64,000 nucleotides of DNA from Lysinibacillus fusiformis (GTDB lineage: Bacteria > Bacillota > Bacilli > Bacillales_A > Planococcaceae): NCBI RefSeq assembly GCF_002845985.1, contig NZ_PDFK01000008.1, forward strand, positions 1 to 64,000, read 5' to 3'. Both the position numbers and the translations under genes were made by a program. Shown piece after piece: positions 303-22,278 of this stretch. The first letter of the stretch is position 1; the number at the start of each line of letters is the position of its first letter. The notes under the pieces were generated by a model. It ran no database searches and was not told the origin of the DNA. It was given only the letters and a program-made list of their open reading frames with translations.

Positions 303-2252
303 TTATTTTTTCAGTATATTTGGAAATTCCTCTAACAGCATGTTACTTGTTGTCATATCATCATAATTCCATTTATCCTCAATAAAGTGAACTTTATTGT
401 TCTTCACGGCAGGTAAGGAGTTCCACAATGGCTCTTGTGTTAATTCATCAAATGCCTTTTGTGCCTCTTTATCTCCAGAAATTAATACAAATAATTGATC
501 ACCCACAAGTGTCTCATGCAGTGTTTCTTTAGTAATTTCAATATATGGCCCACTATTTGGCTGTAATGCCTGTACCTTTTCGTCCATAGTATATCCTTTG
601 TCTTGATACAGCAAGCCTGCTACCCCGCCTGTTTTCATCACGAACATTTTTTTATTCCAAAAAAATTGGAATACGACAGCCGTTTCTCCTTCAGCCACCT
701 TACCATTTGCGCGAAGCTGTTCCCACATTGCATCGGCATCTTCATTATATTTCCTCAGTAGCTGCTCTCCCTCTTCCTTTTTACCAACAATATCAGCAAC
801 GACTGGGAATCGATCCTTTAATGGCTGCATACCATCGAAAACAACGGTTGGTGCAATTTTAGAAGCTTCTTCAACCTCATTATCCATAATATATGACAGC
901 ATAATCAAATCGGGCTTTAACGTCAGTACCTTCTCTAAATTTGTTGGAAAGCCGATATCTGTTGAACTAATTTTCCCGTTATCTTCTAAAACACCGCTCT
1001 CGATGAAACGACGATCTACCCCAACAGGCTCTATACCTAATGCTATTAAATCACCAATTGCATTACCCTGAAGGACAATTCGTTCTGGATTTGTAGGAAT
1101 GTCTACTTCTGTCCCTTGAAGGTCTTTGTAAACCCTTGTCTCAGTAGAGCTAGCTGACTGACTTTCTACTACAGTCTGATTTTGTCCAGTAGTTTCATTG
1201 TTTAGATTAACAGTACCTCCCGTACATGCTGATAATAGTAACGTAATACAAAGTAGTGCCATTGCTGTGAATGAAGCTCTTGAACCTCTATGCATATGTA
1301 TAACTTCCTCTCGCTTATATTGATAATGATTATCACTATCAATATATCGCCATATTGGTCTCCAAACAATGGACGATTCAATGCTATTTTGAGGACGATG
1401 TATAGCATTTTTTCTTTCTTGTTTTCTAAAGCGTAATGGCGTAACACCCCTATGCTTTTTAAAAAGACGGCTCAAATAATAAGGGTCCTTATAGCCCACA
1501 TTTTCGGCAATTTCCTTCAATGTGGCATCCGTTTCTACTAATAAATTTGCCGCTATATCAAGGCGAATCTGAATCAAATAGTCAATTACACTATAACCCG
1601 TTTTCTTTTTAAAAATGGACGCTAAATAAGGAACGCTATAATTCAAATTGGCTGCAATAGATTCTAGTGTCAAAGCCTGTGCATAATGCTCTTGTAAATA
1701 TTTCATTACCTGTCCTACAAGGTCGGGCTTCATCATATCTATACCTTGGCTATGTAGTTGCTGTAGCAGATTATGAACAAATTGATAGAATAATGATTTC
1801 ACATGAAAGCGATCTATTCCACCAGACTTCCTCCACTCCTGCTCCATCAATTTAACTTTGTGAAAAATAGCAATCGGGTAACTGGGTATATAGCTATATT
1901 GCAGTTGAAATGGATTACTTTTATCCATTAGGCGTAATACTTCCGGGCGCATAGGATTAGGCATGGTCGCTTTATAAAAAATCAAATAATACGCCAACTC
2001 ATCCTCCGTTAGAAAAATATCTAAAATAGTCCCTTTGCTACCATGTATGACTTGAAACTGCTGAATAATATACTCGATTTGATTGAGCTGAACTTGCGCC
2101 CTTCCTCGAGAAACAAAAATAAAGCCATTAGCTGGCATTTTATAAGACTGTAATGTTTCTCCCATCCTCATAATCTGATGCCGAACATCTAGCACTTTGA
2201 TAGCAGCATGATCCCACAGGTATATATGGTCATCAACATTCATAATGCACAT
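303..2252 (-). CDS. AraC-type regulator fused in frame to iron-siderophore binding lipoprotein
   Basis: The 649-residue frame has two halves. Residues 1-290 are an AraC-type regulator: a cupin-like N-terminal part, then two helix-turn-helix units at about 185-285 (LTLESIAANLNYSVPYL and TLKEIAENVGYKDPYYLSRL). Residues 320-649 are a type II signal peptide (LLLSAC, Cys343) and a helical-backbone substrate-binding domain of the FhuD/FeuA class (PERIVLQGNAIGDLIALGI). A Fur box at 1321-1335 and a ribosome binding site (GAGGAAG) precede an in-frame Met320 at 1295, so a 330-residue lipoprotein could be made separately from 303-1295. B. subtilis Btr is a known AraC-SBP fusion but, as I recall, has no internal lipobox. 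The long form would put the DNA-binding half in the cytoplasm and the receptor outside. No permease or ATPase gene is adjacent. The next gene (2359-4281) is a paralogue. Confidence 0.85.
   Translation of the reverse strand: MCIMNVDDHIYLWDHAAIKVLDVRHQIMRMGETLQSYKMPANGFIFVSRGRAQVQLNQIEYIIQQFQVIHGSKGTILDIFLTEDELAYYLIFYKATMPNPMRPEVLRLMDKSNPFQLQYSYIPSYPIAIFHKVKLMEQEWRKSGGIDRFHVKSLFYQFVHNLLQQLHSQGIDMMKPDLVGQVMKYLQEHYAQALTLESIAANLNYSVPYLASIFKKKTGYSVIDYLIQIRLDIAANLLVETDATLKEIAENVGYKDPYYLSRLFKKHRGVTPLRFRKQERKNAIHRPQNSIESSIVWRPIWRYIDSDNHYQYKREEVIHMHRGSRASFTAMALLCITLLLSACTGGTVNLNNETTGQNQTVVESQSASSTETRVYKDLQGTEVDIPTNPERIVLQGNAIGDLIALGIEPVGVDRRFIESGVLEDNGKISSTDIGFPTNLEKVLTLKPDLIMLSYIMDNEVEEASKIAPTVVFDGMQPLKDRFPVVADIVGKKEEGEQLLRKYNEDADAMWEQLRANGKVAEGETAVVFQFFWNKKMFVMKTGGVAGLLYQDKGYTMDEKVQALQPNSGPYIEITKETLHETLVGDQLFVLISGDKEAQKAFDELTQEPLWNSLPAVKNNKVHFIEDKWNYDDMTTSNMLLEEFPNILKK
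1293..1335 (-). promoter_or_regulatory. Fur box plus RBS and internal start inside the AraC/SBP frame
   Basis: TGATAATGATTATCA at 1321-1335 matches the 7-1-7 Fur consensus TGATAATNATTATCA at every defined base. On the minus strand it is followed by GAGGAAG, 8 bases, then ATG at 1295. That ATG opens a typical lipoprotein signal peptide. The box itself is translated as part of SDNHYQYK. No clear -35/-10 was assigned. Confidence 0.8.
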
Positions 2253-2292: not shown

Positions 2293-2307
2293 TGAAAATG
2301 ATTCTCA
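2293..2307 (-). promoter_or_regulatory. Fur box upstream of first AraC/SBP gene
   Basis: Minus-strand TGAGAATCATTTTCA matches the 7-1-7 Fur consensus with two mismatches. It lies about 40 bases upstream of the start at 2252, consistent with iron repression of the whole gene. Confidence 0.65.
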
Positions 2308-2358: not shown

Positions 2359-4281
2359 TTATTTATTTTTATCCATTTTGTTAAAGGCTTCTACTACAAT
2401 ATCAAGCTGCTTCTCTAATGAAACGGGATCATTAAAGTAGGAAGCATCACTATCTAATATAGTGACCTTGTTATTTTTCACCGCAGGTAGCTCATTCCAT
2501 AAAATACTTTCCTTTAGAAATGCAAGTGCTGTATCTTCTACAAAAATAAAATCTCCTGCATAATCCAGCAAACGTTCAATGGAAAATGCAACTCCCCATT
2601 CTTTCGACTCAAGTGCTTCTTTTTGAACCAAGGCTGGCGCATTTAGCTGGAACTCCCCATAAATAATTTCTCCACCTCTAGAATAATGATCACCATATAT
2701 GTAAACCTCTTTGTCAGTACCACCCATTAGAGAAACGGTCTGATCTCCAACAACCTCTTGGATAGTTGACTTGTTGTCGGCAATTTTTTCATCCCAATTA
2801 TTTATCCATTGAGCGGCTTCTTTTTCTCTATTAAGCATCTTACCAAACTCTACTAATTGTTCACGGTAACTCATGGCGCCATACTTAATGCCAACAGTTG
2901 GCGCAATCTTTTCAAAGTTTTCAAAGCCTTCCATGCCATCAAAAGCAATAATTAAATCTGGTTTCAATTCCAAGATTTTTTCAATCGATTTGTTGTCACC
3001 AATACTTTCAATGCCATCTATTTTACCTTCAAAATAAGGATTACTTAACGCAAAATCAGACATACCAATAGGTTTAATGCCCAATGCCAATAAATAACCC
3101 GCATAACTGTCTGCTACAACTACAATACGTTTCGGATTTTTGGGAATCTCCACTTCTCTATTCGCCGCCTTATAAACGATGGTTGCTTGTGTTACTTCGG
3201 TAGTCTGTCCTTGTGTCTTGGACTGTGGGTTTGTGCCATTCGAACAAGCACCCAATAGTAGTGTTAGACAAAGCAATACTATCGCTGCAAAGTTTGTTTT
3301 ATGTTTCTGAGACATTGGAATATTTTCTCCTTTTTTATATTGATAATGATTATCATTAACAATATATCGTTGAAACATTTCCCCTTCAATAGAGGATTCC
3401 ATGATGATTTGTGGAGTATCTTCTAGTATGCCTTGTTCCATTACTCGTTTTCTATATTTCCCTGGTGATATTCCTAGATGTCTTTTAAAAATACGATTAA
3501 AATAATGAACATCTGTATAGCCAACACTTGTCGCAATATCCTTTAAAGACACGTTTGTTGATTTTAATAGAGCTACAGCCTTTTTCATTCTTGTATGCAT
3601 GACATATTCGATAAAGCTATAGTTGGTCTCTCTTTTAAATACTGCCGATATATGTGATACACTGTAATTTAAATGCTCTGCAAGAGACTCTAGCTTTATC
3701 GAATCTGCATAATGCTCATCCACATACCTCTTTATTTGACTTACTAAATCTGTTTCTTTTACATAGCTCTCTTGGCTACATAACTCTTGATATATACTTA
3801 ATATAATTTGATAGAATAATGTTTTAACTTGCAAACGTTCCAGCCACCGTGATTGTTGCCAGCTTTCGTACATAAGCTGCACTTTTTCATAAATAGTTAC
3901 CGGATATTTCGGTACCAAGCTAAACTGGATTTGAAATGCATTTCTTTTCTCAAACAGCTGAAGAATCCTTTGACCAACAGGATAAGGAACAGAACCTTTA
4001 TAAAAAATAAGGTAGCACTCTAGTTCATTAGTTATTTGATTAATTTCTAAAGCTGCCCCTTTACCGCTATGTATCATTTGAAACTGAATCACGTGATAAT
4101 TAGTTTGATCCAAATGCACTTGCGCTGTTCCACGCGTGATTACTATAAGTACACTTGTTGGCAATTTATAAGGCTGTAATGTATCCCCTATCCTCATTAC
4201 TCTATGACGAACGTCTAATACCTTGATAGAAGCGTAATTCCAGAGTAGTAGATGTTCTTCTATATTCATGTCGACTTTCAC
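2359..4281 (-). CDS. AraC-type regulator fused in frame to iron-siderophore binding lipoprotein (paralogue)
   Basis: The 640-residue frame has the same plan as its downstream neighbour. An AraC sensor part is followed by helix-turn-helix units at about 190-285 (IKLESLAEHLNYSVSHI, SLKDIATSVGYTDVHYFNRI). A junction encoding NDNHYQYKKGE is followed by a type II signal peptide (LLLGAC, Cys346) and an FhuD/FeuA-like binding domain (IPKNPKRIVVVADSYAGYLL). An internal Met323 at 3315 has AAAAAAGGAG about 11 bases ahead, so 2359-3315 could encode a separate 318-residue lipoprotein. The N-terminal halves of the two paralogues are clearly similar, so this is probably an old tandem duplication. Divergence of the binding domains suggests different ferri-siderophores. 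It has its own upstream and internal Fur boxes. Confidence 0.85.
   Translation of the reverse strand: MKVDMNIEEHLLLWNYASIKVLDVRHRVMRIGDTLQPYKLPTSVLIVITRGTAQVHLDQTNYHVIQFQMIHSGKGAALEINQITNELECYLIFYKGSVPYPVGQRILQLFEKRNAFQIQFSLVPKYPVTIYEKVQLMYESWQQSRWLERLQVKTLFYQIILSIYQELCSQESYVKETDLVSQIKRYVDEHYADSIKLESLAEHLNYSVSHISAVFKRETNYSFIEYVMHTRMKKAVALLKSTNVSLKDIATSVGYTDVHYFNRIFKRHLGISPGKYRKRVMEQGILEDTPQIIMESSIEGEMFQRYIVNDNHYQYKKGENIPMSQKHKTNFAAIVLLCLTLLLGACSNGTNPQSKTQGQTTEVTQATIVYKAANREVEIPKNPKRIVVVADSYAGYLLALGIKPIGMSDFALSNPYFEGKIDGIESIGDNKSIEKILELKPDLIIAFDGMEGFENFEKIAPTVGIKYGAMSYREQLVEFGKMLNREKEAAQWINNWDEKIADNKSTIQEVVGDQTVSLMGGTDKEVYIYGDHYSRGGEIIYGEFQLNAPALVQKEALESKEWGVAFSIERLLDYAGDFIFVEDTALAFLKESILWNELPAVKNNKVTILDSDASYFNDPVSLEKQLDIVVEAFNKMDKNK
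3313..3358 (-). promoter_or_regulatory. Fur box plus RBS and internal start inside second AraC/SBP frame
   Basis: TGATAATGATTATCA at 3341-3355 is a perfect 7-1-7 Fur box. The surrounding minus-strand 19-mer differs from the classic GATAATGATAATCATTATC at one base. A strong ribosome binding site (AAGGAG) and ATG at 3315 follow at the lipoprotein signal peptide. The site occupies the same place in the frame as in the paralogue. Confidence 0.82.
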
Positions 4282-4304: not shown

Positions 4305-4319
4305 TGATATTGATTATCA
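4305..4319 (-). promoter_or_regulatory. Fur box upstream of second AraC/SBP gene
   Basis: TGATATTGATTATCA matches TGATAATNATTATCA with one mismatch. It lies about 24 bases upstream of the start codon at 4281. Confidence 0.72.
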
Positions 4320-4394: not shown

Positions 4395-7300
4395 CTATTG
4401 AGTTCTAGGTTGGATTAAGACATAGTTTGGAGCTGTTGGAGATGTAGATTCCTTCGCATAAACTATATTTCCGTATTTATCCTTCGTAAATAAATATATT
4501 TTTTGATCCTTTTGGAATATGTTTGTAGAATTTGGATCAGTGCTTGTTTGAATAGCCGTAAATGTTTTTTCAGAACTTGCATCTGAAGGTTTTGTTATTT
4601 GTCCCTTACCATAAGATATTATTCCTCCGCCAGGAATGTCTGTGTAATTATTGCTATCAGCTCTTTCGATAATATCTTTAATATTAGCTATTGTTAAGTC
4701 ACCCTGGTTTTTTGAAAGAACTGCATAATAGTAATGCTGATTCCATGTTATATCTGCATCTAAGTTAGCAATAACTCGAACCTGCTTAGAAATATTTAAG
4801 TCACCTGGGTACTGTATATCAGGTACTAACGTTGCTGAAGTAATTGTATTCACTTTTGTTGGATATTTGTATTCTGCTTTTAATTTACTGAATGCCCATC
4901 CGCCTTTATCCTTCGCGGTAGCATTGATTGTCATATCAAAGCTTTGTGTAACTTCATTTGCAAATGTTAGTATCATTTTACGTGGCTTCCATTCATCAAT
5001 TTCATCTACCTTATCCTGCCACTTCCATGAAGCATAAGTAGGAGTAATTGCAGTGCCTGTTTCAGGATTCACTAATTGGAAATCTGAATCTTTTAATTCA
5101 ATAGCCTCAGAAAAAGTCACTTCTAATGTTTTTCCATCAAGCTGTTTAACGATCGGATCCTCTACCTTTGGTGGTGTACCATCTGAGAAGAATTTATATG
5201 CCATTACACCTTTGTCAGTTTCGCCTGGTGTCAAAGTAATTGTTTTATTTTGCTGTTCATCAAAAGTATATACTTTTGACTCTGTACCTACTTGAAGCAT
5301 TGTTGCATTTTTATATCTATCTTTTACCGCAACATAAAGCTCATAATTTTGATGGGGTTCTAAAGAGGTAAAATTAATTTCATTAGTACCCTTTCGCATA
5401 TTGCTAGCTCTTCCTCTTTCAATAACCTCCTCAGCACTTGAAGGTACTGGAACTGTTGCATCGCCAGCTTTTCTAAGAATATAGTGATACGTACCATCTT
5501 CATCTGACATAAATTTGAAGGTAGCATTCTTATCTCCTTGAGCTATCTTTATCGATGTATTTTCAATTTTCGGTGGTGTTTGGTCATCGATTACATGTCT
5601 AGTCTCAATATCTGAAACATTTCCTGAACGATCGCGCAATACCATATAGATAGAGTAGCTCTTAAACGGATTTAAATTTGCTGTTGGTAATGGGATTACT
5701 ACCTTTTGTTTTCCTAGTTGAGCAGGTTTATTACCTCCGCTCCCAACAATATCGATTTCTTCTGTTCCAACCTTAAATTTTGTTTCATTTAATTGGACAG
5801 CTTCAATTAAACGTAAGCGGTCATCACGTGTAAGAGTTATATCTGACTCCATAATTAGATAATGATACGTTCCTGCTTTTGAAGCATTAAACTCAAGAAG
5901 TGTTTGGTCCTTTGTATTATTAATTACTGGTTCTCCTATAATTGTGAGGACTGGTAATTCAATATCGTTATGAATGTATTCGGCTGTGTTTCGCGGAACA
6001 GTATTATTTGGAATGTTATTGATATTTTCAAATTCGATATCAGCCAAATCTTTAACATTCGGTGATATTGTAACAACTAGATTATCCCCGTTTACAAAGC
6101 CTGTTAGTGATGGAATGGTGAAAATTAATCTTTTCTGAGCTTTATTATAGACAACCTTTGTAGGATGTATCGGTTGCTGTGCACCTTGATTGACTATCCC
6201 TGTACCTGAAAGATCATAGTTCTCTATTTTTTCAGCAGAAATAGGATCTAAATCCTCACTCACGGTTAGATAAAATTCATTTTTAATCTCATCTAGTAAT
6301 ACAAGTTGTCCACCTACAACATATGGTGGGATATTATCAAGCTCACCAGTTTTAAACTCTTTAACCGCCTCTTTAGGTATAGGATCTACCGAGAAGTTGC
6401 CTGAATCATCCTTCATGACAACATAAAGTTGATATTCGGTTTCAGCATCTAATTCTGTTAAAATTCCTGTTATTCCAAGTTCTCCAGCTTTTGCCTTCCC
6501 TTTACCTGTTGGGTTTGCGACGATATCTGCCGTTGTTGGGTCAGCTGCTGTTGTTTTCTTACGTACATAATAGTAATAATCTCCAGGTTCACTTGCTGCA
6601 AACTTGAATTCAGCACGTGTTCCTCCATGTAAAGGCGTAACTTGTAGAGATTTAACTACTGGTGGAGTTGCATCTTTCATTTGGAATGCTTGAGAGACAA
6701 TATCAGATGCATTTTTCGAGCCGTCTACAACCATGATGTAGATGACATATTCTTTTTTCTCACCTAGATTTGAAACTTTTATTGAGTTTGTGCCTTTGAT
6801 TGCCGCACTACTTCCGTATGCAACGTTTTCAATTGAAAGATGGTTTACCATTTCACGTTTATTAGGTGCCTCTGCTCCCTTTTCACGCACAATATAGTAG
6901 TACGTACCTACCTCATCAGATGTGAAATCTGCTTGAATCTCACTGCCATTGAGCACTTTGACATTTGTAATACTTACAATAGGCTTTGTTTTATCATCTG
7001 GATTCTGATTCTCGTTTTCGTCTTTATCGATTGGTTTGCCATCTGGATCTGTGATATTTCCGATATTGTCTTTATCATCTAGGAAATCATCAAAGATATT
7101 ATTTGGAGATTCATCTTTAGGTAAAATGACTTTGTCGATATACGTATAGTCCCCAATGTCAACCTTGCCGTATGAATTATCAACATATAGAGTACCGATA
7201 CGGCCATCTATATACAGCTCTAAATCTGTATAACTGTTGTAGTTTATCCAATCAATATTGCCATCTCCATAGATCGTTAACTTTGTTTCGGTATCCAGAT

Positions 7301-8651
7301 TTAATGTTCCAATATAGCCTTGAATTTCAAATTCGCGAACACTTCCGATGATGTCTACACGTGGTAGTTTCATATTGGATTCGATTTTTGTCCCTGTTTG
7401 TGATACTACTAGTCTCGAAACAGTGCTGTTATAAAATTCAAGATGCTTTTCAACATTTTTCATTTCTTGTTTTTCTTTTGACCAGTTGACAAATGGCTTA
7501 TCTTTATCAGGATTTTGGTTCGTCCAATTTTGAAGATCGTTTGTTGAATTGTTATTAGATGGACCATCGCCTTTAGTATTATCTGGATTCGACCAGTTGA
7601 TAAAAGAAATATTATTGCTCGCCACACGCCCAATGGATAATGGTTGATTGTTAGTAGCACCTAAATGCAATGGTGGTCGAACTGTTTCATTGACGAACAT
7701 AGTACCTGTCATCTTCAGATTCGAAAATTCAATATAGTTGCCATTAACTACAATGGTTGCACCTAATGAACCATAATCACCATCAAAATCAAGGAATTTT
7801 GAGCTTGTTCCGCTTGCATTTAATGTTAGTTTAGAGATGGATCGAACCTTCTTACCAGAAAGATCACCCTCAATATAAGCACCCTTTAAGACAGGTGCAT
7901 TATCGTCATTAAAAATATGTGAAAGGCTTTCTGGAACTGCATAGGCTTCACCATTTATATAAACGGCATCATCATCTACATCTATAATTTTGAAAGATGT
8001 TTCATTGTTCTTTTTCTCTTGTGAACGAACCACAAAAGAAGCAAACTGTCCACGATTTACAGCATCAAACGGAGAGAATGTCACAGGTGTTGTGCCTTCA
8101 GTAATATTTAAATCGATAAGTGTTTGAATATAGATAGCATTGCTTGATTGGCTATCTACATCTTTAAAAATATTGTTGTAACTAGGAGATACCTCCAAAT
8201 GGAATGCTAATACTAATATTTTTGCTAATTCGCCACGAGTCATCACTTCGTTTGGCATAAATGTGCCATTAGAATACCCAGACATAATGCCCGCGTTTTG
8301 CAATGCTGCGACAAATTTATAAAATTCGCTACCCTTCGGTACATCCTTATAATAAGGATTTTGGACATTTCTCGTATCCAATTTTAATGCCGTTGCAATC
8401 ATTTTTGCTGCTTGTCCACGTGTTACATTGACATCCGGACGGAAGGTTTTATCGGCAAACCCGTTAATCACACCCTGAGAATATAATTTTAATATATCGT
8501 TATAATGAACTGAGTATTGGTCGATGTCTGTAAAGGGAGAAGTAGCCGCTGCCGCTTTTTGTGGTGGAGGTACTACAACAGCAATCCCACTTGTAGCAAA
8601 TACTGTTGCTATCAAGGCTTTATTTACTTTTTGGATTTTAGATTTATCCAT
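4395..8651 (-). CDS. Large SLH-domain cell-surface protein with Ig/FN3-like repeats
   Basis: The start was placed at MDKSKIQKVN (8651), because AAAGGAAG lies 7-8 bases ahead. An upstream in-frame ATG at 8690 has no comparable site. The protein is about 1418 residues. A signal peptide ends near AAAA/TSPF. Three SLH modules follow at about 35-205 (FTDIDQ, YYKDVPKGSEFYKFV, NIFKDVD), which in this family bind pyruvylated secondary cell-wall polymer. The middle (about 210-560) is rich in short beta-type repeats, followed by an acidic DPDGKPIDKDENE linker. At least four Ig/FN3-like units share an EAxGTYHYLxxx pattern (for example DEVGTYYYIVREKG, ASEPGDYYYYVRKK, DEDGTYHYILRKAG). Near the C-terminus is an SbsA-like Ig unit (VEDPIVKQLDGKTLEVTFSE). 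No catalytic domain was recognised. It is probably structural, adhesive or S-layer-associated. Confidence 0.85.
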   Translation of the reverse strand: MDKSKIQKVNKALIATVFATSGIAVVVPPPQKAAAATSPFTDIDQYSVHYNDILKLYSQGVINGFADKTFRPDVNVTRGQAAKMIATALKLDTRNVQNPYYKDVPKGSEFYKFVAALQNAGIMSGYSNGTFMPNEVMTRGELAKILVLAFHLEVSPSYNNIFKDVDSQSSNAIYIQTLIDLNITEGTTPVTFSPFDAVNRGQFASFVVRSQEKKNNETSFKIIDVDDDAVYINGEAYAVPESLSHIFNDDNAPVLKGAYIEGDLSGKKVRSISKLTLNASGTSSKFLDFDGDYGSLGATIVVNGNYIEFSNLKMTGTMFVNETVRPPLHLGATNNQPLSIGRVASNNISFINWSNPDNTKGDGPSNNNSTNDLQNWTNQNPDKDKPFVNWSKEKQEMKNVEKHLEFYNSTVSRLVVSQTGTKIESNMKLPRVDIIGSVREFEIQGYIGTLNLDTETKLTIYGDGNIDWINYNSYTDLELYIDGRIGTLYVDNSYGKVDIGDYTYIDKVILPKDESPNNIFDDFLDDKDNIGNITDPDGKPIDKDENENQNPDDKTKPIVSITNVKVLNGSEIQADFTSDEVGTYYYIVREKGAEAPNKREMVNHLSIENVAYGSSAAIKGTNSIKVSNLGEKKEYVIYIMVVDGSKNASDIVSQAFQMKDATPPVVKSLQVTPLHGGTRAEFKFAASEPGDYYYYVRKKTTAADPTTADIVANPTGKGKAKAGELGITGILTELDAETEYQLYVVMKDDSGNFSVDPIPKEAVKEFKTGELDNIPPYVVGGQLVLLDEIKNEFYLTVSEDLDPISAEKIENYDLSGTGIVNQGAQQPIHPTKVVYNKAQKRLIFTIPSLTGFVNGDNLVVTISPNVKDLADIEFENINNIPNNTVPRNTAEYIHNDIELPVLTIIGEPVINNTKDQTLLEFNASKAGTYHYLIMESDITLTRDDRLRLIEAVQLNETKFKVGTEEIDIVGSGGNKPAQLGKQKVVIPLPTANLNPFKSYSIYMVLRDRSGNVSDIETRHVIDDQTPPKIENTSIKIAQGDKNATFKFMSDEDGTYHYILRKAGDATVPVPSSAEEVIERGRASNMRKGTNEINFTSLEPHQNYELYVAVKDRYKNATMLQVGTESKVYTFDEQQNKTITLTPGETDKGVMAYKFFSDGTPPKVEDPIVKQLDGKTLEVTFSEAIELKDSDFQLVNPETGTAITPTYASWKWQDKVDEIDEWKPRKMILTFANEVTQSFDMTINATAKDKGGWAFSKLKAEYKYPTKVNTITSATLVPDIQYPGDLNISKQVRVIANLDADITWNQHYYYAVLSKNQGDLTIANIKDIIERADSNNYTDIPGGGIISYGKGQITKPSDASSEKTFTAIQTSTDPNSTNIFQKDQKIYLFTKDKYGNIVYAKESTSPTAPNYVLIQPRTQ

Positions 8652-9034
8652 CCCACTCTTCCTTTCGCTTATGTATTTTGATACGTACAAATATCATTTC
8701 CTCATACTCTTTATATCGGCTCGTAGCTAACGAACCTTCATAGATAAATCTAAATTAGTCAGGTAAATTTCTTGATTAATCAAATGACCTTTCTATTTCT
8801 GAAATGGTGATTAATTTTTCAGTTTGCTAACTGAGTGATTCGCCATTTTGACTCACCTTTCTATTTCTTTTGGAATGATAGCCCTTCTTAATGAGCATCT
8901 TTTCCCACTTTTAGAACGGGCTCTACACTTTGACGAGCTCTTCCATGTGATATCACCACTTCTCTCCTCTTCAAACCATTGTGGCCACGTTTTACCCTCA
9001 CTAATAACAAAATAAATTCCCTTCATCCACACAA

Positions 9035-21372: not shown

Positions 21373-21555
21373 CGTCATTCCTCCTAAATCGTCATACTCC
21401 TTTTACGCTTTAGAAACTGTAAAAGTTTCATAACACATTCCCCTACTGTATACAAATTTTCATATAATCAATACTTCATTTCCTCTTTCATGTATATTTC
21501 ATTTATAATGATTGTCAGAAAAGGATTCTTCCAAATCGAAAGGTCGTGTGAATAA

Positions 21556-22278
21556 GTGCAAGAACCAACTATATTAGTAGTGGATGATGAGGCTGATTTA
21601 GCTAATCTGTTAAAAGTAAGCTTACAAAAAGAGGGCTACAAACAAATTTATACGGCTGGCTCCATTCATGATGCTTGGACAAGCTTTCAACTAACAAAAC
21701 CAGATATTGTACTGCTAGATGTCATGCTTCCAGATGGTGAGGGCTACGATTTATGTAGACGTATCCGTGAAGTCTCACATGTGCCTGTACTTTTCATGTC
21801 TGCTAAAAACGAGGAAATTGATAAAATTTTAGGGCTAGCCATTGGTGGAGACGATTACATTACTAAGCCTTTTAGCCCTAAAGAGGTTGCCTATCGTGTA
21901 AAGGCCCAATTACGAAGAGCTGGCTACCAAACTCAAGATACTGCTCCGAGCCTTACCAAGAAAGCACTACAGCATGGACCATTCCAGCTGAATACCGATG
22001 AAACTGAAGTTCATAAAGATGGCGTTTTATTGGAGTTAACGGCAAAGGAAATTGGTTTAATGGCGTGCTTTATGCACAATCCTAATCGAATTTTAAGTAA
22101 AGAAACGCTGTTCGAACGTGTCTGGGGAGAGGACTTTTTCGGTTCAGATAATACAGTCATGGTGCATATCCGTCGTTTGCGTGAAAAAATCGAGCAGGAT
22201 GCCTCAAAACCTCTGTATATCACCACTGTTAAAGGACTTGGTTATAAATTCGTCGTACCAAAAGAGGCACAAGAATGA
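21556..22278 (+). CDS. OmpR/PhoB-family response regulator
   Basis: A 240-residue response regulator starting at GTG. The receiver domain (1-120) has the acidic pair D10/D11, phospho-acceptor Asp55 (VLLDVMLPDG) and the lysine block YITKPFSPKE. The C-terminal winged helix (about 140-235) has KEIGLMACFMHNPNRILSKE and VMVHIRRLREKIE. It overlaps the downstream kinase by four bases (ATGA), so the two are translationally coupled. The neighbouring yxdLM-yxeA genes are separated by the repeat region and read on the other strand, so they are not clearly its targets. Confidence 0.94.
   Translation: MQEPTILVVDDEADLANLLKVSLQKEGYKQIYTAGSIHDAWTSFQLTKPDIVLLDVMLPDGEGYDLCRRIREVSHVPVLFMSAKNEEIDKILGLAIGGDDYITKPFSPKEVAYRVKAQLRRAGYQTQDTAPSLTKKALQHGPFQLNTDETEVHKDGVLLELTAKEIGLMACFMHNPNRILSKETLFERVWGEDFFGSDNTVMVHIRRLREKIEQDASKPLYITTVKGLGYKFVVPKEAQE

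Follow-up and report, generated by a model that had tools for sequence, protein, structure and literature searches.

Internal Fur Boxes in AraC Regulator–Siderophore Receptor Fusion Genes of Lysinibacillus fusiformis and Other Bacilli Suggest a Nested Lipoprotein Gene

Btr (YbbB) of Bacillus subtilis is an AraC-type activator with a bacillibactin-binding domain, and its sensor domain is not known to carry a secretion signal. According to PMC6529636, it activates feuABC-ybbA. Genes in which two such domains occur together have been counted in siderophore clusters: in Table 1 of PMC13293324, 229 genes combine Peripla_BP_2 with another domain, which is HTH_18 in 98.7%, and Fur sites were sought in that study within the clusters and upstream of recognizer genes. 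For the genes carrying HTH_18 and Peripla_BP_2, sections 22 and 24 of that paper say nothing of a Fur site or a start inside the gene or of a nested lipoprotein. An in-frame internal start is described for SpaO and SpaO-short (PMC13059759), two products that share the C-terminal part, as is likewise proposed here; compared with SpaO, the internal start considered here would have a repressor operator and a promoter of its own, and its short product would be sent to another compartment. AraC-SBP fusions and in-frame internal starts are known, whereas a Fur operator that is both conserved and translated, combined with a nested lipoprotein, was not found described; in the literature searched, of partial coverage, neither an internal Fur box nor a nested lipoprotein was reported for AraC-SBP genes, which is weak evidence of absence.

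The window analyzed here, a 64,000-nucleotide stretch of Lysinibacillus fusiformis DNA, carries two adjoining fused genes at the end of its contig. Sites were assigned by sequence, using the 7-1-7 consensus for Fur and the −35/−10 consensus for promoters, as follows.

303..2252, minus strand: fused ORF 1, AraC-type regulator plus siderophore-binding lipoprotein, a single open frame (649 codons, 649 aa)
1321..1335, no strand assigned: internal Fur box of ORF 1, perfect, TGATAATGATTATCA, translated within ..DNHYQ..
1337..1342, minus strand: −35-like TTGATA of ORF 1, 17 bp from the −10-like site
1314..1319, minus strand: −10-like TATAAG of ORF 1
1304..1312, minus strand: Shine-Dalgarno sequence of the internal start of ORF 1, GAGAGGAAG
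303..1295, minus strand: proposed short form of ORF 1, a lipoprotein SBP (ATG 1295–1293; 330 aa before processing)
2293..2307, no strand assigned: upstream Fur box of ORF 1, two mismatches, followed by TATAAT
2359..4281, minus strand: fused ORF 2, laid out as ORF 1 (640 aa), adjoining ORF 1
3341..3355, no strand assigned: internal Fur box of ORF 2, perfect
3334..3339, minus strand: −10-like TATAAA of ORF 2, with a −35-like TTGTTA at 3357–3362
3327..3333, minus strand: Shine-Dalgarno sequence of the internal start of ORF 2, AAAGGAG
2359..3315, minus strand: proposed short form of ORF 2 (ATG 3315–3313; lipobox Cys codon 3246–3244)
4305..4319, no strand assigned: upstream Fur box of ORF 2, one mismatch

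The earlier note on this DNA had described the AraC and siderophore-receptor halves of ORF 1 as one open frame with a perfect 7-1-7 Fur box, a ribosome site, an ATG and a lipobox at the junction. This description was borne out, as the 649 codons run uninterrupted from 2252 to 303 on the minus strand and all of the junction elements are present; ORF 2 as a neighboring copy, the upstream Fur box of each ORF and the conservation of the layout in relatives are additional to it. An AraC HTH domain is followed by Peripla_BP_2 in one frame in both ORFs. In ORF 1, HTH_18 (AraC-type HTH) spans aa 199–278, the signal and lipobox aa 320–343 and Peripla_BP_2 aa 394–624, and the signal of the short form ends in LLLSAC, with the Cys codon at 1226–1224 of the minus strand. 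Read on the minus strand, the spacer of the promoter-like pair contains a perfect palindrome (1335–1321), TGATAATCATTATCA, and a 7-1-7 box lies at a promoter-like site, as in members of the Fur regulon. The fused genes are adjoined by a gene at 4395–8690 (minus strand) for a 1431-aa protein, whose N-terminal part resembles S-layer homology repeats by eye.

Both window proteins share with Btr the order of an AraC-type half and then a Peripla_BP_2-type domain, as well as a setting in iron uptake, and Btr was the best-scoring NCBIfam model for both, with 95.7 and 115.9 bits against a cut-off of 900 for NF049932. They differ from Btr in their lipoprotein signal, lipobox, internal Fur box and internal start between the halves. 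Because the scores lie far below the cut-off and the sensor carries a signal, which that of Btr is not known to do and which the Btr-like ORFs of this genome lack, the window proteins were not filed as Btr. The C-terminal part matches FhuD-, FeuA- and YfiY-type lipoproteins by sequence, and its predicted fold matches that of FhuD2 (4b8y; Foldseek E 5.6e-17). The short form shares the lipobox and both SBP glutamates with FhuD/FeuA-type lipoproteins, and it has the Peripla_BP_2 domain, solved-structure relatives, start with a Shine-Dalgarno sequence, signal and lipobox expected of that type; in contrast to FhuD, FeuA and YfiY, the frame of the window fusions continues upstream into an AraC-type regulator.

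Only two perfect Fur boxes were found in the 64 kb, both at the fusion junctions, against 0.01 expected from 100 dinucleotide shuffles. Enrichment was mild for sites with up to three mismatches (20 versus 12.7 expected, with 3 of 100 shuffles reaching 20). Across the genome, 55 sites with at most one mismatch were found versus 3 for a reversed-pattern control. An origin of the box by chance was ruled out by the shuffles together with this genome-wide control. Elsewhere in the window, a Fur-like site with two mismatches (21503–21517) lies about 40 bp before a response-regulator-like gene (21556–22278, plus strand), which is followed by a sensor-kinase-like gene, as judged by eye.

When ORF 1 was used as a query in its own genome, 60 matches were obtained, and eight full-length lipobox fusions were identified among the matches looked at, all eight with an upstream and an internal Fur box. 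The internal boxes have at most two mismatches (two in L004 and in L008) and always lie in one codon phase. The stretches read also contained 10 Btr-like AraC-SBP ORFs without a lipobox, none of which has an internal box with two or fewer mismatches, so that, as far as the Btr-like proteins encoded here are concerned, the contrast with Btr drawn in the earlier note is borne out. Nine of these 10 ORFs adjoin a separate lipoprotein SBP gene with a Fur box at its start; no such gene was present in the 4 kb read beside the tenth (L224). In the lipobox fusions, the receptor gene, including its promoter-like region, lies inside the frame of the regulator. A FecCD permease lies within 5 kb of one of the eight fused genes, and 25 FecCD matches occur across the genome. 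Contigs C6 and C24 of this genome (G000; the window is C24:1–64000) carry siderophore-receptor genes and have no FecCD match on the same contig; the receptors may have importers in common that are encoded at a distance.

The distribution of the fusions was examined at three levels. Matches were found in 13 of 32 genomes of the genus at E ≤ 1e-70 and, at E ≤ 1e-100, in 21 of 200 genomes of an order sample and 41 of 398 of a class sample, the three samples overlapping. Named carriers are Lysinibacillus sphaericus OT4b.31, Lysinibacillus sp. ZYM-1 and L. parviboronicapiens and, outside the genus, Cohnella sp. WQ 127256 and Paenibacillus sp. SYP-B3998. The 183 fused candidate ORFs were reduced to 163 distinct ones; 148 of these, from several families of Bacilli and with the own genome included, have a lipobox by rule, and 15 do not, although L179 among the 15 does carry a box and a lipobox. 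A further genome of the same species as the window (G033) was covered only where the searches gave loci, with two of its stretches (L216 and L217) and, besides these, L215 added later, and loci known only from searches with the AraC half were sampled in part. A search of relatives for AraC-SBP ORFs with a Fur box at the junction had been suggested in the earlier note: 147 of the 148 lipobox fusions carry a junction box with at most three mismatches, always in codon phase 2 (56 perfect, 46 with one mismatch, 30 with two and 15 with three; six in the remaining one, L186). Outside the junction, the closest match within each ORF has zero to three mismatches in 23 cases, four in 81, five in 43 and six in one. 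An upstream box with two or fewer mismatches lies at the 5′ end of 126 of the 148, as against 2 of 460 control stretches inside ORFs. The fusing of two genes by a sequencing or annotation accident was ruled out by the 148-ORF set and the AraC-half search described below. L186, the lone lipobox fusion without a junction box, has kept its upstream box (one mismatch). Two of the 15 ORFs without a lipobox by rule, L175 (about aa 340–380) and L184 (about aa 320–345), have a junction box with two mismatches and no recognizable lipobox, and no hydrophobic signal was seen by eye at the junction of L184.

The internal start is similarly conserved. When it was picked without regard to the Shine-Dalgarno sequence, which removed the bias of selecting for one, it was an ATG in 147 of 147 cases, and 138 of these 147 have a Shine-Dalgarno match of 4 nt or more, compared with 31% of 1952 other in-frame ATGs. 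A −35/−10 pair (at least 4/6 each, 17 bp) coincides with the box in 52 of 147 ORFs versus 0.34% of same-phase positions, a count that partly overlaps the conservation of the box and the peptide. The −10-like site abuts the Shine-Dalgarno sequence, and a transcript would begin at or within the latter, so that the true start may differ. What the comparison shows to be conserved is the open frame together with the Fur box, the ribosome-binding site and its start codon, the lipobox and two glutamates of the SBP domain.

The reading that we favor, with a probability of roughly three in four, is a nested gene, in which a Fur-controlled upstream promoter would give a long sensor-regulator and an internal Fur-controlled start a transport lipoprotein. 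The earlier note had proposed a long regulator-receptor and a short lipoprotein with Fur acting within the coding sequence, and this is the reading best supported by the comparisons: the box, Shine-Dalgarno sequence and ATG are conserved in the DNA, no stop interrupts the long frame, and fusions that have no lipobox lack the box. For these genes we infer Fur binding, internal transcription, the existence of both proteins, a division of labor between them and importer docking. The upstream promoter would drive a long protein made of an AraC-type DNA-binding half and a siderophore-binding domain; within its gene, a sigma-A-like promoter with a Fur box in the spacer, a Shine-Dalgarno sequence, an ATG and a lipoprotein signal would give the binding domain alone, as a membrane lipoprotein docking on an ABC importer. 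Upon iron limitation, Fur would leave both operators; the short form would then import the ferric siderophore, while the long form would, like Btr, report the presence of that siderophore. The internal Fur operator would itself be translated as a linker peptide. Because sensor and receptor would contain the same binding domain, their ligand specificity would be identical by construction. If this is true, one stretch of DNA is operator, promoter and ribosome-binding site and at the same time encodes a protein linker, and it has been kept as such across several bacterial families, and the automatically shared specificity would match regulation to uptake in bacteria with dozens of siderophore receptors. 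Surveys of receptors may miss or misname siderophore receptors that lie inside ORFs starting as AraC regulators.

A helix was predicted at aa 325–343 of the long form in a low-confidence structure model (mean pLDDT 65.6, with the signal region partly below 50), which was used for domain layout only. As the long form holds the signal helix, it may span the membrane through this helix or be cleaved at the lipobox; alternatively, it may stay in the cytosol. In one explanation, which we consider improbable, only the long protein is made, is inserted into the membrane through the internal signal and is split by lipoprotein signal peptidase, with the box acting in roadblock repression and no transcript starting there. 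Such processing would fit the constant presence of a complete signal and lipobox inside a long frame that is kept open, but it leaves unexplained both the conserved Shine-Dalgarno sequence with its ATG and the −35/−10-like pair at the box. Within the nested-gene reading, a more elaborate version can be put forward tentatively, and we regard it as less likely than not: the long form would be an AraC activator that spans the membrane and senses, on the outside, through the transport receptor itself, which would share its codons with the free lipoprotein, and the lipoprotein signal would be its anchor; signal peptidase may release or silence the DNA-binding half, and the translated Fur operator would set the ratio of sensor to receptor.

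A second explanation holds that the short lipoprotein is the sole working product of the 3′ half, the frame being a relic or serving only to keep ribosomes moving across the promoter region and the AraC half functioning in truncated form. The box, Shine-Dalgarno sequence, ATG, signal and SBP glutamates do resemble those of a free receptor gene, but the state of the frame makes this explanation quite unlikely. The spacing from box to ATG takes 12 values between 19 and 64 nt, all of them 1 mod 3, so that it shifts only by multiples of three. Since the 148 ORFs had been selected as fused, a search was also made with the AraC half alone, in which 68 of 69 matches in the genus lay in frames of at least 602 codons and 79 of 87 in the class sample in frames of at least 588 codons. 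Among the eight short matches of the class sample, the frames of L198 and L200 are interrupted within the SBP part; L199, L201 and L202 are disrupted such that AraC and SBP segments no longer share a frame; and L203–L205 encode AraC proteins that do not continue into an SBP, as does L206, the lone short match in the genus. None of these nine short matches is a clean pair of AraC stop, Fur box and lipoprotein. In 28 lineage representatives, one for each lineage, the stretch that begins 35 codons ahead of the box and ends at the internal Met is free of stops, as against a chance of about 2% per lineage in shuffles, and the linker before the box has a pN/pS of 0.26–0.67 in five orthologue groups. 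Fused genes with broken frames do occur in some genomes (L198–L202, L134 and L187), and receptor repertoires seem to decay.

The constraint at the box is, as far as codon usage and substitution patterns tell, one that acts on DNA. Box columns were anchored on the protein alignment, which avoids choosing the box by its own match, and the anchor coincides with the box in 121 of 148 ORFs. In these columns, T occupies the third base of 491 of 499 codons whose residue permits it, compared with 10,090 of 13,744 (73%) D/N/H/Y codons in other parts of these ORFs; in the few ORFs with a GC3 over 0.6, the box-anchored count was 12 of 12 versus 37% elsewhere. The linker encoded by the operator reads (D/E)N(H/Y/D/N)YQ. 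Its third residue is mainly H (CAT), and otherwise Y, R (CGT), G (GGT), D or N, which is the variation predicted for a codon whose first base falls on the free center of the Fur consensus; 10 alignment rows with Q at this residue show the columns to be imperfectly aligned. When the protein was kept and codons were redrawn from the same ORF, 13 perfect boxes were expected against the 56 observed, and 84.8 boxes with two or fewer mismatches against 132 (n = 148). Single genes were rarely significant in this comparison, as at least 5% of recodings matched equally well in 136 of 148, and only the pooled excess is strong. Over the box codons, pS was 0.000 in four orthologue groups and 0.167 in the fifth, compared with 0.35–0.64 in the AraC and SBP parts of the same five groups. 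That the box is merely a by-product of a DNHYQ linker kept for protein reasons, whose AT-rich codons mimic a Fur box, gains something from the many boxes that recoding still returns within two mismatches, but it is very unlikely in view of the third-position T, also in GC-rich ORFs, the pooled excess of perfect boxes, the variable residue that tracks the free center base and the lack of a box with two or fewer mismatches in fusions without a lipobox.

These last fusions formed a contrast group of 18 ORFs, which includes near-copies from the same species (nine ORFs remain after reduction at 62% identity). A box with two or fewer mismatches within the 330 nt before the SBP part was present in 0 of 18, compared with 132 of the 148 lipobox fusions; the best site in this stretch had three mismatches in one ORF, four in seven, five in nine and six in one. 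Glutamates of the kind found in these SBP domains dock the importer in FhuD and BtuF. The first, in the NLEKV..KPDL motif, is kept by all 148 lipobox fusions and by all 36 free lipoproteins (37 before the removal of one that was part of a fused ORF) but by only 2 of 18 contrast ORFs; the second is present in all of the former two groups and in 8 of 18 contrast ORFs. Six AraC-SBP fusions of 588–609 aa (L207–L212) have neither a lipobox nor an internal Fur box with two or fewer mismatches. One of them, the Paenibacillus-like L209, falls into a four-row clade of the SBP tree (support 100/99) with the fusions L118, L173 and L175, although its sister placement is weak (92/58) and L175, too, is without a lipobox. 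In L209 the lipobox, the box and the first glutamate are all absent, as if lipoprotein start, operator and SBP glutamate had been lost together. A single origin of the fusion was not supported by the SBP tree. In this tree of 66 rows, one of which (S_L045) is a mislabeled piece of a fusion, fused receptors are scattered among free ones with 14 label changes for the fused group, at least 12 of them forced by well-supported branches, a pattern pointing to probable repeated fusion, splitting or receptor swapping.
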